NCBI GenBank assembly: GCA_021736615.1
Contig: JAIPFN010000055.1
Span: 1-6,180 of the forward strand
DNA: 6,180 bases
Reading direction: 5' to 3'
Source: Phycisphaerae bacterium
GTDB lineage: Bacteria; Planctomycetota; Phycisphaerae; Sedimentisphaerales; Anaerohalosphaeraceae
The position numbers and the translations under genes are program-made. A model generated the notes under the pieces. It did no database searches. It saw nothing but the letters and a program-made list of their open reading frames with translations, and had not been told where the DNA came from. Shown here piece by piece: positions 1 to 5,465 of this stretch (its first letter is position 1; each line of letters starts with the position of its first letter).

Positions 1-1492
1 CCCGATTCACCCCGCGAACCTCATTAATGATTCTGCTTGATATTTGCCCAAGTACCTCAAAAGGAATATGCGAAAAATCAGCCGTCATAAAGTCCGTAGT
101 CTCAACCGCCCGGATAGCCACAACATTCTCATAGCTCCGCTCATCGCCCATAACCCCGACAGTTCCTATCGGCAGCAAAACACACAACGCCTGCGAAATC
201 TGCCTGTAAAGCCCGGCCGCGACGATCTCTTCGATCAAAATAGCGTCAGCTTCTTTAAGAACATCAAGCTTAGGTTTTGTAATATCGCCAATAATCCGAA
301 CAGCAAGCCCCGGCCCCGGGAAAGGATGACGCCAAACTAAATGTTCCGGCAGACCTAGAAACTCGCCAACCTTGCGAACCTCGTCTTTGAACAACTCACG
401 AAGCGGCTCAACAAGATCAAACCCGAGCTGCTCCGGCAGCCCGCCGACATTATGATGCAGCTTAATATTCGCAGCAAGATTACCGTCCTTCGCACCCGAC
501 TCGATAACGTCAGGATAAAGCGTACCCTGCGCCAAAAAATCAGCATCTTCGATCTTGTCCGCCTCGGACTTAAACGCCTCAATAAACTCGGCACCGATGA
601 TCTTACGCTTTTTCTGCGGGTCGGTAACCCCTTCAAGCTTTTCAAGAAACTTATCCCCCCAGTCAACAACATGCAGGTCCATCTTGAAATGGCCCTTGAA
701 CATCGACTCAACTTCCTCGCGTTCATTCTTACGACACAAACCGTTATCGACAAAAATACACTTAAGCTGATTTCCGATAGCCTTATGCAAAAGCGCAGCC
801 ACAACAGAAGAATCAACCCCGCCGCTAAGCCCGCAAATAACATTCCTGTCACCAACCTGCTTGCGAACATCGGCGATAGTCTGCTCGACAAAATCAGCCA
901 TCTGCCAGTCACCGGCACAATCGCAAATGTCATAAAGAAAATTCTTCAGGATCGTATTGCCGTACGGCGTATGCGTAACCTCAGGATGAAACTGCACGCC
1001 GTAAAACTTCGACTTCGTATGTTTAACAACCGCGTAAGGACACGTATCGGTCGTCGCCAGCGCCTCAAAATCGGCACTAAGTTCATTAACCTGGTCGCCA
1101 TGACTCATCCAAACAGTCGTCGCCTCGGGAACATTGGCAAGCAGCTCGTTATCGGCAGTAACGCTAAGATTCGTCCGTCCATACTCACGCGACTTAGCAG
1201 GCTTAATATCCGCCCCAAGCGTCTTACACCCAAACTGCATGCCGTAGCAAATCCCAAGCACAGGCACCCCAAGCTCAAATATCTTCGCATCGCAAGCCGG
1301 AGCACCCTCGGCATAAACACTCGCCGGCCCCCCCGAAAGGATCACGCCCTTAAGGTTCTCCGCCGCAAGTTCCGCCGCCGTAACACAAGGCTGAAATATA
1401 CGCGAATAAACATTATGCTCACGCACCCGACGCGCGATAAGCTGACCATACTGACTACCAAAATCGATAATTGCAACAAGTTCGTGTGACAT
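1..1492 (-). CDS. guaA: GMP synthase (glutamine-hydrolysing), 3' end cut by window edge
   Basis: GuaA converts XMP to GMP in the cytoplasm, using ATP and ammonia taken from glutamine; this is the last step of guanine nucleotide synthesis. Translating the minus strand from the ATG at 1492 gives 497 open residues to the window edge. A class I glutamine amidotransferase domain comes first (about residues 1-190), with the nucleophile Cys82 in GICYGMQ and the His169/Glu171 pair in GVQFHPEV. The ATP-pyrophosphatase domain follows, with its PP-loop SGGVDSS at residues 223-229. The C-terminal dimerisation domain includes [14 protein letters not shown] and ends at the edge in [10 protein letters not shown]. 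Family members continue for about 16 more residues, so only the tail is missing. The start is preceded by GGGAACGAA, a weak ribosome site. No residue appears damaged. A two-gene cassette and a probable terminator lie upstream, between it and guaB, so it probably needs its own promoter or readthrough. Confidence 0.97.
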
Positions 1493-1520: not shown

Positions 1521-1555
1521 AAAAACCAAAACCCGCTTTAAACCCAAAAAGCAGG
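1521..1555 (-). terminator. Probable intrinsic terminator after the two-gene cassette
   Basis: Read on the minus strand, CCTGCTTT (1555-1548) pairs with AAAGCGGG (1539-1532) to give an 8-bp stem with one G-U pair and an 8-base loop. It is followed at once by TTTTGGTTTTT (1531-1521). This is the form of a rho-independent terminator, although the interrupted T-tract and the modest G/C content make it medium strength. It lies 43 bases past the stop of the upstream gene and 28 bases before the guaA start, so it would separate the cassette transcript from guaA. It could also be a leaky attenuator. Confidence 0.55.
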
Positions 1556-1602
1556 ACATTACCTAGTTTATTGCCTAGTTTAATCAAACATTACCTAATT
1601 AA
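1556..1602. repeat. Three short direct repeats between cassette and guaA
   Basis: On the plus strand ACCTAGTTTA (1561-1570), GCCTAGTTTA (1573-1582) and ACCTAATTAA (1593-1602) form three related copies, with starts 12 and 20 bases apart. The longer string ACATTACCTA occurs at both ends of the group (1556-1565 and 1587-1596). The last copy overlaps the stop codon of the upstream gene. They may be a protein-binding cluster for guaA control, or a scar from an insertion or duplication. No matching copy was seen at the other end of the cassette. Confidence 0.4.
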
Positions 1603-2429
1603 AAATCCAATCTCAGTTGCTTATCTACAGGCGGCGTAAATGTTCCTATGATCATAAATGGATTTTTACCCCTTTTATGAAAACTCTGTGTCGTGCCAAG
1701 AAAGAAATACATATCTTTCGTTAAAGCAAAATCGTCCCAATACTTCTGTTTCACTTTTTCAAGTGCTTCCTTTTCACTTCCGCCGGCTTTTAAACAGTTC
1801 CAAAAAAGTGCACCTAGCTCCCAATCTCTAATACTCAAATCACAGCTTTTGCCTTTGCTATCAATGAATTTATACCTACATACATATGGCAACTTGCGGG
1901 CCAACTTAAAATCTTCTTTAAACTCTTCCTGCTCGAAAAGCTGCCCTTGCTTCATATCTGCAATAATACTATTTAATTTCTTTTCATCCCATTCCCTACT
2001 ATCTTCTTCTTTCCAGTAAAAACCTGTCACTTCCTTAGGTTTAAATAACGCCAGAGACAACTCATTTTTTTCTTTAGCAAGACATATCAATTCTTCGATA
2101 GAATCAAAACATTTCACTTTGCCTAAAATAAAACGACGTCGCTCCTGCCATTTATCTGAAGTGCCCATATGGCCTACAGTTTTAATCGCAGTGAGATCTT
2201 TGGGCCTGAAACTTTCCGGCCTGTCATCTTTTTGATTTCTTTCTAAAGGCAATTCAATCCAATTGTATTTCTTGAATTGAAGGTCATCATTCAGTCTTCT
2301 AAATGGTATTGGATAAATCCGAACCCACGAGCCATCTTCCGTGACCCCAGCCGTACAAACAAGTTCTCCATATGATGTCGATAATGCCGGATATGTCTTT
2401 ACCGTTATTAAAACCTTCTCCGTTTTCAT
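1599..2429 (-). CDS. Conserved-looking hypothetical protein, partner of the DUF488 gene
   Basis: This 276-residue protein has no function I can assign. It begins with a short beta-rich part containing VLITVKTYPALS (residues 6-17), GELVCTAGV (21-29) and a WVRIYPIPFRR run (35-45). A charged stretch RPESFRPKDL follows (70-79), then a mostly helical middle rich in Lys and Glu (about 110-180). The C-terminal part has RDWELGALFW (201-210) and ends with FFLGTTQSFHKRG and PFMIIGTFTPP (242-267). There is no signal peptide, membrane segment or recognisable nuclease or ATPase motif. The ATG shares its A with the last base of the upstream stop codon (TAATG), so translation is probably coupled and the two proteins are likely made in fixed ratio. 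From memory, proteins of this type often sit beside DUF488 genes in other bacteria; this was not checked. The gene is AT-rich compared with guaA and guaB. The coding call is firm; the function is unknown. Confidence 0.88.
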   Translation of the reverse strand: MKTEKVLITVKTYPALSTSYGELVCTAGVTEDGSWVRIYPIPFRRLNDDLQFKKYNWIELPLERNQKDDRPESFRPKDLTAIKTVGHMGTSDKWQERRRFILGKVKCFDSIEELICLAKEKNELSLALFKPKEVTGFYWKEEDSREWDEKKLNSIIADMKQGQLFEQEEFKEDFKLARKLPYVCRYKFIDSKGKSCDLSIRDWELGALFWNCLKAGGSEKEALEKVKQKYWDDFALTKDMYFFLGTTQSFHKRGKNPFMIIGTFTPPVDKQLRLDF

Positions 2430-3316
2430 TAGAACTCTTTAAATTTAATCCCATTTTCTCCTAAAGACTTTATAGCCTTAGCAACTGACGTCCTATGGCA
2501 CATGGAAGGCTGTAATTCAAAACAGGTTAAAGCGATTCGTTTCTTGCTTTGCAAGCATTGATAAAGCTCTTCAACTTTATCAGTTCGAGCAGAAAGAACA
2601 TCTTTCTCGTATTCCTCAAACAACTCATCGTAATCTTTCTGGCAATTAAGGTCCTTACGAAATGAACTTTCTATCCCCAATTCCGGAATATGCTTATATT
2701 CTATCCCAAGACATTCAGCTGCATTACTAAGAGTTTTCTTGGAAAACCCGTATTTACGGCTTAAAGCATTCTTCCTGACATCACATAAAACCTTGACATC
2801 CTGCCTGATCAGTATATTTAAAAATTCCTCAAGAGTCCTGCCTTCGTACCCCAAAGTATAAAGAACTGTACTGTTATTTCTTGGTCTGAACTCATTTACT
2901 TTTCCCATTTCACTTTTTGATAAAATGCGATCAGCAATAGAACTGTTTATTGCAAAGTATGGATATTTTCTATAAACACACTTTATCAAGTCATCCCCAC
3001 TTAAATCACCATATTCTTTTTTAATATTCCAGAGGCGATCTTTTTCGTCAAAGCCAATCATGTCAACAAAACTTGGATGTTTTTTTGCAACCACCCATTC
3101 ATCGCAATCCTTTAAATAACCTTTGCTTATCAACTTTCGCCTGTCATCATAAGCCTGAAACGAGAAGCAACCAAATTTATAGGGCACAAAATGGTAACTT
3201 TTTTCTTCCTGAAGGCGAGTAAATAGAAAAAGATATTTCTGCAAATCAGTACTCCGCAAACTGCCTCCAAAGTACTCAAGCAATGCAAGTATTATCTTTT
3301 GACGTTTAAATATCAT
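2429..3316 (-). CDS. DUF488-domain protein with N-terminal LQK-type domain
   Basis: This is a 295-residue, two-part protein. Residues about 1-110 carry LQKYLFLF (25-32) and VPYKFGCFSFQ (44-54). This pattern recalls the helical or winged-helix-like start of YwgA- and SocA/Panacea-type proteins, but I cannot name the family securely. Residues about 150-295 match the DUF488 pattern: YTLGYEGRTLEEF (153-165), CDVRKNALSRKYGFSKK (178-194), PELGI (211-215), then CFELQPSMCHR (265-275) with the paired cysteines and His-Arg typical of the family. DUF488 proteins have no settled biochemical role. No signal peptide or membrane helix is present, so it should be cytoplasmic. The ATG at 3316 is preceded by GAGGT four bases away. 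The gene overlaps the next by one base (TAATG). It sits between guaB and guaA on the same strand and is clearly more AT-rich, which suggests that it was acquired. Confidence 0.9.
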   Translation of the reverse strand: MIFKRQKIILALLEYFGGSLRSTDLQKYLFLFTRLQEEKSYHFVPYKFGCFSFQAYDDRRKLISKGYLKDCDEWVVAKKHPSFVDMIGFDEKDRLWNIKKEYGDLSGDDLIKCVYRKYPYFAINSSIADRILSKSEMGKVNEFRPRNNSTVLYTLGYEGRTLEEFLNILIRQDVKVLCDVRKNALSRKYGFSKKTLSNAAECLGIEYKHIPELGIESSFRKDLNCQKDYDELFEEYEKDVLSARTDKVEELYQCLQSKKRIALTCFELQPSMCHRTSVAKAIKSLGENGIKFKEF

Positions 3317-3329
3317 AAATACCTCAACT

Positions 3330-3347
3330 TGTATAATCCGTTATACA
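3330..3347. promoter_or_regulatory. Perfect inverted repeat in the cassette leader, candidate operator
   Basis: TGTATAATCCGTTATACA is two exact 7-bp arms (TGTATAA / TTATACA) around a 4-base centre. It lies 14-31 bases upstream of the DUF488 gene start and downstream of the predicted promoter, where a bound repressor would block elongation. The arms are AT-rich, so a stable RNA hairpin is less likely than a dimeric regulator site. No regulator gene is seen in the cassette, so the binding protein is unknown; the partner proteins themselves are possible. Confidence 0.45.
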
Positions 3348-3391: not shown

Positions 3392-3400
3392 ATTATACCA
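3392..3400 (-). promoter_or_regulatory. Candidate extended -10 promoter for the cassette
   Basis: On the minus strand TGGTATAAT (3400-3392) is an exact extended -10 element (TG, one base, TATAAT). No convincing -35 box lies 16-18 bases upstream, which extended -10 promoters can do without. The transcript would start near 3385 and leave a leader of about 70 bases carrying the 3330-3347 inverted repeat. It lies in the 129-base gap after guaB, where I saw no terminator, so readthrough from guaB may also feed the cassette. Confidence 0.5.
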
Positions 3401-3445: not shown

Positions 3446-5150
<1,705 letters not shown>

Positions 5151-5160
<10 letters not shown>

Positions 5161-5465
5161 AAACAACGCCATTTACTCCTCAAAAAAAGCCTAATGAACC
5201 CAATGTTTTTATAAAGTTTGACGATAATACATGTGTTGGATGGGACGGCAGACAAAAGGCAATAGCCTGGTCAGCCGTGCTGAGAATTATGTTAAAGCAT
5301 AAAAACCCACCATGTCTGTTCCGCATAGACGGAGCAGGCATGCCATCCACAACTAACTATGACAGTTTCAGGTTCCATTTTTTCTTTTTCGGGCAGGCCG
5401 CAATGGCCTGCCTTTTTTTTACGCCTTATGCCTTACTCTTTTACACCTTACGCCTCACACCCTAA
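5151..5465 (+). CDS. Doubtful small open frame, 104 residues
   Basis: An open frame starts at an ATG inside the left heptamer array and runs to a TAA that overlaps the stop of the convergent transporter gene. It has no Shine-Dalgarno site. It also reads straight through the strong terminator at 5391-5420, so a transcript ending there would lack the stop codon. The first 75 residues look soluble and basic (for example VGWDGRQKAIAWSAVLRIM), while the last 25 are encoded by the T-rich tract and repeats. I recognise no family. It may be a chance frame over a structured RNA, or the remnant of a small gene that lost its end. Confidence 0.2.
5223..5228 (+). promoter_or_regulatory. Possible -10 box for the plus-strand RNA
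   Basis: GATAAT matches the -10 consensus at five of six bases and would place the transcript start near 5235, exactly where the predicted RNA fold begins. No -35 box fits at 16-18 bases upstream, and the flanking DNA is AT-rich. It is weak evidence on its own. Confidence 0.25.
5235..5420 (+). ncRNA. Candidate structured small RNA of unknown family
   Basis: A multibranch fold can be drawn by hand. The closing helix P1 pairs 5237-5243 with 5343-5349 (7 bp, TGGATGG with CCATCCA). P2 pairs 5245-5249 with 5274-5278 and continues, after an internal loop, as AGGC/GCCT (5257-5260 with 5265-5268) around AATA. P3 pairs 5287-5291 with 5298-5302. P4 pairs 5311-5323 with 5330-5342: 13 continuous bp including two G-U pairs, with loop CATAGA. 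P4 abuts P1 and could stack on it. The G-U pairs favour the plus strand, since the other strand would have A-C mismatches. A strong terminator ends the unit at 5420, giving about 185 bases. I looked for the hallmarks of 4.5S, 6S, tmRNA, RNase P RNA and tRNA and found none. No comparative support is available. Confidence 0.4.
5391..5420 (+). terminator. Strong intrinsic terminator, plus strand
   Basis: GGCAGGCC (5392-5399) and GGCCTGCC (5405-5412) form a perfect 8-bp G/C-rich stem with loop GCAAT, followed by eight T (5413-5420). On the minus strand the stem is followed by CGAAAAAG, so it is not a good terminator for the transporter gene. It therefore implies a plus-strand transcript arriving from 5150-5390, although no confident protein gene is there. 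Confidence 0.85.
5419..5461. repeat. Degenerate 7-bp tandem repeat, TTANNCC type
   Basis: Consecutive units on the plus strand are TTACGCC, TTATGCC, TTACTCT, TTTACACC (8 bases), TTACGCC and TCACACC. The array starts in the T-tract of the terminator and ends at the stop codon of the transporter gene. Its TTA-first units run on the opposite strand to those of the array at 5126-5160, so the two look like inverted borders. Confidence 0.6.

Follow-up and report, generated by a model that had tools for sequence, protein, structure and literature searches.

A PDC-M19-type gene pair, a DUF488 fusion and a predicted dual-OB protein, inserted between guaB and guaA in a planctomycete

Identification of the cassette

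Why should two AT-rich genes stand on the minus strand between guaB and guaA in Phycisphaerae bacterium (contig JAIPFN010000055.1), and what might their products do together? Both genes, here called A and B, lie in the window, the whole stretch of 6,180 nt that was analysed. A previous interpretation made from the DNA letters (the sequence-only reading) had described this position and a TAATG overlap of the two genes, and the reading frames bear out both, the gua genes being named by eye. It had also taken one protein for a DUF488 fusion, which holds, and the other for unrecognised, which was wrong: both proteins match the PADLOC profiles of PDC-M19 (A with E 2.8e-113 over residues 3-293 of 295, and B with E 1.5e-109 over residues 1-274 of 276), and both match PHROG families of unknown function. 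Judged by these profiles, the cassette is a PDC-M19-type module, widespread and uncharacterised. Its parts are as follows.

1599 to 2429, minus strand: gene B, 276 aa, predicted tandem OB folds, PADLOC PDC-M19B (profile match and model)
2427 to 2431, minus strand: TAATG stop/start overlap of A and B, shared base 2429 (reading frames)
2429 to 3316, minus strand: gene A, 295 aa, N-terminal Panacea-like and C-terminal DUF488 domains, PADLOC PDC-M19A (profile matches)
2432 to 2878, minus strand: residues 147-295 of A, DUF488 domain (PF04343, E 2e-24)
2891 to 3313, minus strand: residues 2-142 of A, Panacea/DarG-C-terminal-type fold

The C-terminal domain of A passes the Pfam gathering score of DUF488 (PF04343) with 87 bits against 22.2, and barely passes that of DUF488-N3a (PF22751), with 28.1 bits against 27. 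The DUF488 family is common, A alone having 5,085 homologues at E up to 0.001, and in the DUF488 domain of A ten residues are invariant across 82 sequences, namely G156, D179, R181, G214, R220, C265, E267, C273, H274 and R275, which include the motifs D-x-R, C-x-E and CHR. The N-terminus of A aligns with Panacea (PF13274) in hhalign with 96.2% over 112 columns, against at most 2.5% in six controls. A Pfam search of A itself gave no Panacea match at E up to 1, and among 65 relatives of A Panacea matches are weak (15, best 0.0018), while the unrelated DUF3867 is matched by nine (best 0.0013). The DarG model (NF048014), which includes the macrodomain and has a cut-off of 250 bits, gave no match for A and weak ones in 20 of the 65 relatives (best 0.0017). 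On this profile evidence the N-terminus is a diverged antitoxin domain of the Panacea/DarG type fused to DUF488, an assignment made here for the first time, and A is likely an enzyme joined to an antitoxin-like domain. Mimicry of single-stranded DNA by this domain, an idea prompted by the DarG match, is disfavoured because its average charge over 100 sequences is basic (+4.3).

B is predicted, here for the first time, to be a dual-OB protein with a fold like that of proteins that hold single-stranded DNA: its model contains two tandem OB folds with moderate scores, and a likeness to RPA/HIN-type tandem OB proteins is tentative. A Pfam search of B found no known family (best match E 0.1), and the matches among its relatives are scattered, none better than 0.002. 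DuOB (PF22557) was not matched by B in Pfam and is absent from the 13 families that 75 relatives matched (E up to 0.1); a profile-profile comparison of B with DuOB gave 87.4%, limited to 67 columns, with 0.2% for the reversed control. Searching the sequences of solved structures returned no match or chance-level matches only.

Linkage and distribution

The claim of the sequence-only reading that the two proteins belong together as an accessory module finds support in their linkage. Removing copies at 97% or more left 75 of 86 fetched B loci, and DUF488 adjoins B in 73 of these, with at most 130 nt between domain edges, in a set that is not a random sample, since manual choice supplied 9 of the 23 plasmid records and 1 of the 7 Gordonia phage records. 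The two exceptions are L105, where B is cut by the contig end, and L128, a broken copy. Among the paired loci, 28 have the fused A followed by B, 15 have DUF488 without Panacea followed by B (one of them a ParB fusion), 27 are convergent and three have B first. A quick tree built from 68 B proteins implies seven architecture changes by parsimony (the least possible for five states being four), although fewer are required when only its well-supported branches are counted, and three of its end branches are long. In six of seven annotated convergent cases the genes overlap at their 3' ends. The convergent layout (L048-L050, L052-L055 and most of L090-L114) is unusual for partners that need joint production.

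The proposed accessory nature of the pair is further supported by its distribution: it occurs sporadically, on plasmids and in phages, and as an insertion at guaB-guaA. Fifteen of 148 relatives and 15 of 392 members of the phylum carry B, each 15 including G001 and the weak remnant G051; single-sequence scans for the cassette had yielded one locus in one case and none in another. Remnant or broken copies of B at L016, L110, L126 and L128 suggest recurrent loss of the gene. B stands on 23 plasmid records, 19 of which also have a DUF488 match by plain tblastn; in two cyanobacterial records with B, DUF488 is visible only by profile, and this follow-up covered the plasmid records with B other than NC_010598 and NC_020051. 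Conversely, 21 of the 40 plasmid records with a DUF488 match are without B. Plasmid neighbours of the pair include heavy-metal, transposase and regulator genes. We take yeaO to be a DUF488 gene. An excerpt of PMC8228696 shows yeaO in a table of oxidant-resistance genes, and a part of PMC9674854 describes Methanoperedens plasmids that carry DUF488 without a B-type partner.

B and DUF488 occur together in seven records of five Gordonia phages, and in Gordonia phage Herod a single base is shared by B and the repressor gene. A portion of PMC6426606 credits proven defence in CarolAnn, a further Gordonia phage, to genes that are expressed together with the repressor. CarolAnn genes 43 and 44 were considered as homologues of the pair and rejected, being a RexAB-like pair of another family. 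DUF488 of the type found here, without B and accompanied by SSB-, RecT- or YqaJ-like genes, is seen in viral contigs L057-L060, L062, L065, L071-L073, L078 and L079.

Insertion at guaB-guaA

The flanking genes and the elements around the cassette are the following.

2 to 1492, minus strand: guaA, downstream flank, open at the window end (named by eye, without a family search)
1532 to 1555, minus strand: terminator-like hairpin and T-run after B (scan with one match, 1.2 expected by chance)
3330 to 3347, no strand: palindrome of 7+7 nt in the leader (present in the window, arms broken in L001)
3392 to 3400, minus strand: extended -10 box TGGTATAAT of the cassette (kept in L001)
3446 to 4918, minus strand: guaB, upstream flank (named by eye, without a family search)

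The same order, guaB-A-B-guaA, is found in L001, a locus of the Planctomycetota metagenome-assembled genome MohnsGC08_bin187, with identities to the window of 89% for A, 85% for B, 95% for guaB and 93% for guaA. guaB was matched in 142 of 148 genomes, and the best 30 guaB places, including that of G001, were fetched, which left 29 others for comparison; none of the fetched stretches of these 29 relatives holds A or B. The guaB-guaA gap could be measured in 21 of them: it is near-empty (-2 to 139 nt) in 19 and holds unrelated inserts of about 0.9-1.0 kb in the other two (L030 and L035); this count leaves out L026, L028, L032, L033, L038, L040, L042 and L043, some of them cut by contig ends, and L028, L032, L033 and L043 show no guaA within full 1.5-kb flanks. 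The sequence-only reading had held that a cassette at the same place throughout the relatives would speak against it, and such sharing extends to one close sister only. Given the occupied gap in L001 and the near-empty one in 19 of 21 others, the cassette was, most simply, gained before the split of the window and L001, has stayed since, and is now vertically inherited there. The inserts in L030 and L035, by eye a BRO/DinD-like and a GIY-YIG-like gene, suggest that insertions may land in this gap repeatedly. In the sister genome a BRO/DinD-like gene, also named by eye, directly follows guaA (L001:12513-13367).

Base composition sets the cassette apart from its flanks. The previously noted contrast of 22 of 60 G/C at 2101-2160 in the cassette with 29 of 60 at 4321-4380 in guaB is exact, and it extends to whole genes (G+C 0.377 for B and 0.358 for A against 0.503 for guaA and 0.515 for guaB) and to third positions (0.33-0.35 in A and B against 0.52-0.54 in the gua genes), with an equal contrast in L001. 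Ratios of nonsynonymous to synonymous divergence between the window and L001 are 0.073 for A and 0.071 for B, against 0.043 for guaA and 0.042 for guaB (synonymous divergence 0.75-1.19), and by this comparison of coding sequences the cassette is under purifying selection.

The control signals that had been claimed for the cassette fared unevenly. Its extended -10 box recurs in L001, whereas a two-hexamer promoter scan gave three sites against 6.3 expected by chance and detected no -35 element. The leader palindrome is present, but it is weak as an operator because its arms are broken in L001. The stem-loop and T-run after B recur in L001 with small changes, while the terminator scan stays at chance level and the 108-nt spacer as a whole folds no better than shuffled sequences (z -0.06). 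Between the end of B and the terminator, window 1558-1601 carries a 12-nt repeat, ATTACCTAGTTT (plus strand), in three near-copies, and the same three motifs also occur in L001; an exact 12-nt direct repeat, TAAAAATCCAAT, lies at 1507-1518 and 1600-1611, with one copy at each end of the spacer between B and guaA. Elsewhere in the window, a plus-strand reading frame of 104 aa (5151-5465) separates guaB from a gene that by eye resembles an MFS transporter. An Rfam search gave no match.

Possible functions of the pair

How might such a pair act? Our tentative answer, to which we give a probability of roughly 0.4, is a nucleic-acid-directed module against invaders. B would hold single-stranded DNA or RNA through its two OB folds, the DUF488 domain of A would be the catalytic effector, recruited to or switched on by B, and the Panacea-like N-terminus would serve for docking or restraint, holding the pair inactive until an invader arrives. 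A role in defence, already suggested by the sequence-only reading, may be the case, in line with the PADLOC candidate match. The genomic setting of the planctomycete copies lends it no clear support. Open reading frames around the cassette (119, from 17 of 20 fetched loci, three being dropped because B was missed) were compared with 137 from 20 control stretches, by a procedure that yields shadow frames in GC-rich genomes, and matched 113 PADLOC profiles against 42 in the controls. The best 25 profiles of each set are mainly type I specificity and PD-T4-6, with one member each; other neighbour matches among those listed are mad8 (two members) and PDC-M41B, PDC-M30B, SoFic and RtcR-CARF (one each). 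Within these 17 loci and best 25 profiles, no clear defence-island setting emerges.

The modelled OB folds would equally suit an accessory of DNA repair or recombination, in which DUF488 processes or mends single-stranded DNA held by either B or a phage SSB as the OB protein, and mobile elements keep the genes for their own replication. Among 58 viral loci, an SSB-, RecT- or YqaJ-like gene accompanies 11 of the 14 that lack B and 4 of the 44 that have it (Fisher p 1.7e-6), in a count whose rows are non-independent, with copies kept, queries from the same loci and gene names from our own reading of the sequences, and whose 14 loci without B include L077, in which A is seen only as an N-terminal fragment, and L066, cut just after A. 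Plasmid p.QF3 is annotated with RecT and a PD-(D/E)XK nuclease-like gene near the pair. Set against this are the sporadic presence and PADLOC embedding of the cassette and the absence of any prominent repair family among the 25 of 107 Pfam families listed, with no control, for planctomycete neighbours, and we regard repair as an improbable main function, albeit one to be taken seriously. The broader suggestion of nucleic-acid processing, made in the sequence-only reading, gains from the tandem-OB model and weakly from the phage context.

A toxin-antitoxin pair, with the Panacea-DUF488 protein A as antitoxin and B as toxin, would fit an overlapping operon in which the antitoxin comes first, the resemblance of A to the DarG C-terminal domain, and the proven antitoxin role of Panacea (PMC8832971, in part). 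Yet 27 of the 75 loci are convergent and without Panacea, B has no known Pfam family even among its relatives, and the place of DarG's macrodomain is taken in A by DUF488; such a pair is unlikely, though a serious rival. The location between guaB and guaA, shared by the window and one sister, might also point to a local role in purine metabolism, as regulator or enzyme, which is already disfavoured and hardly credible, as the gap lacks the cassette in the measurable relatives, other copies are located at unrelated places, and the cassette has its own -10 box and terminator, kept in L001.

Comparison with known systems

The cassette has its closest counterpart in PDC-M19, matched almost full length by both proteins and likewise composed of adjacent genes with A ahead of B. 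PDC-M19 is an unvalidated phage-defence candidate whose library entry carries no mechanism; such candidates mostly lack experimental validation, as stated in a section of PMC12988326. In our literature search no paper names PDC-M19 or gives a DUF488 reaction, no DUF488 paper concerns this pair by its title and the start of its abstract, and nothing relevant turned up for dual-OB or DuOB proteins; subscription papers and preprints lay outside this scope, so that an earlier notice of DUF488 with DuOB is possible. The predicted dual-OB partner, the Panacea-like domain and the invariant residues now make this anonymous candidate directly testable.

PDC-M45/DuOB is similar in placing a dual-OB protein close to DUF488 genes. 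Eight DuOB loci were found in 199 genomes, and DUF488 reading frames lie in the fetched flank of six; PDC-M45A matches the DuOB gene in two of the eight DuOB genomes, and the DUF488 domain of A matches PDC-M45B and PDC-M45C. From this proximity and these profile matches, PDC-M19 and PDC-M45 seem to be related in design, a relation proposed here for the first time. They differ in that the six DuOB loci have two DUF488 frames each, and DuOB and B are linked in sequence only at profile level.

PanAT (Panacea, DUF4065) shares with the cassette a similar N-terminal domain and an operon of two overlapping genes, but A is fused to DUF488, B is not a known toxin and Panacea is missing from 45 of the 73 paired loci. 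Unlike DarTG, A has no macrodomain and its N-terminus is basic; no DarT gene is found in the window, where guaB and guaA flank the cassette, and B itself gave no DarT match. The archaeal ParB-CTPase-DUF488-helix-turn-helix proteins come close in another way: Sulfolobus plasmid pSOG1 has a ParB-DUF488 protein directly before B, with ParB in the place of Panacea, and an archaeal ParB-fold fusion to DUF488 and a helix-turn-helix binds CTP, as reported in part of PMC12704722. It is conceivable, if doubtful, that PDC-M19, PDC-M45 and the archaeal ParB-DUF488 plasmid genes represent one broad, unnamed class of prokaryotic immune enzymes, in which an OB protein would sense single-stranded invader nucleic acid and direct a new catalytic fold, and in which the N-terminal control domain would be swappable: Panacea in many bacteria, ParB on Sulfolobus plasmids and none elsewhere.
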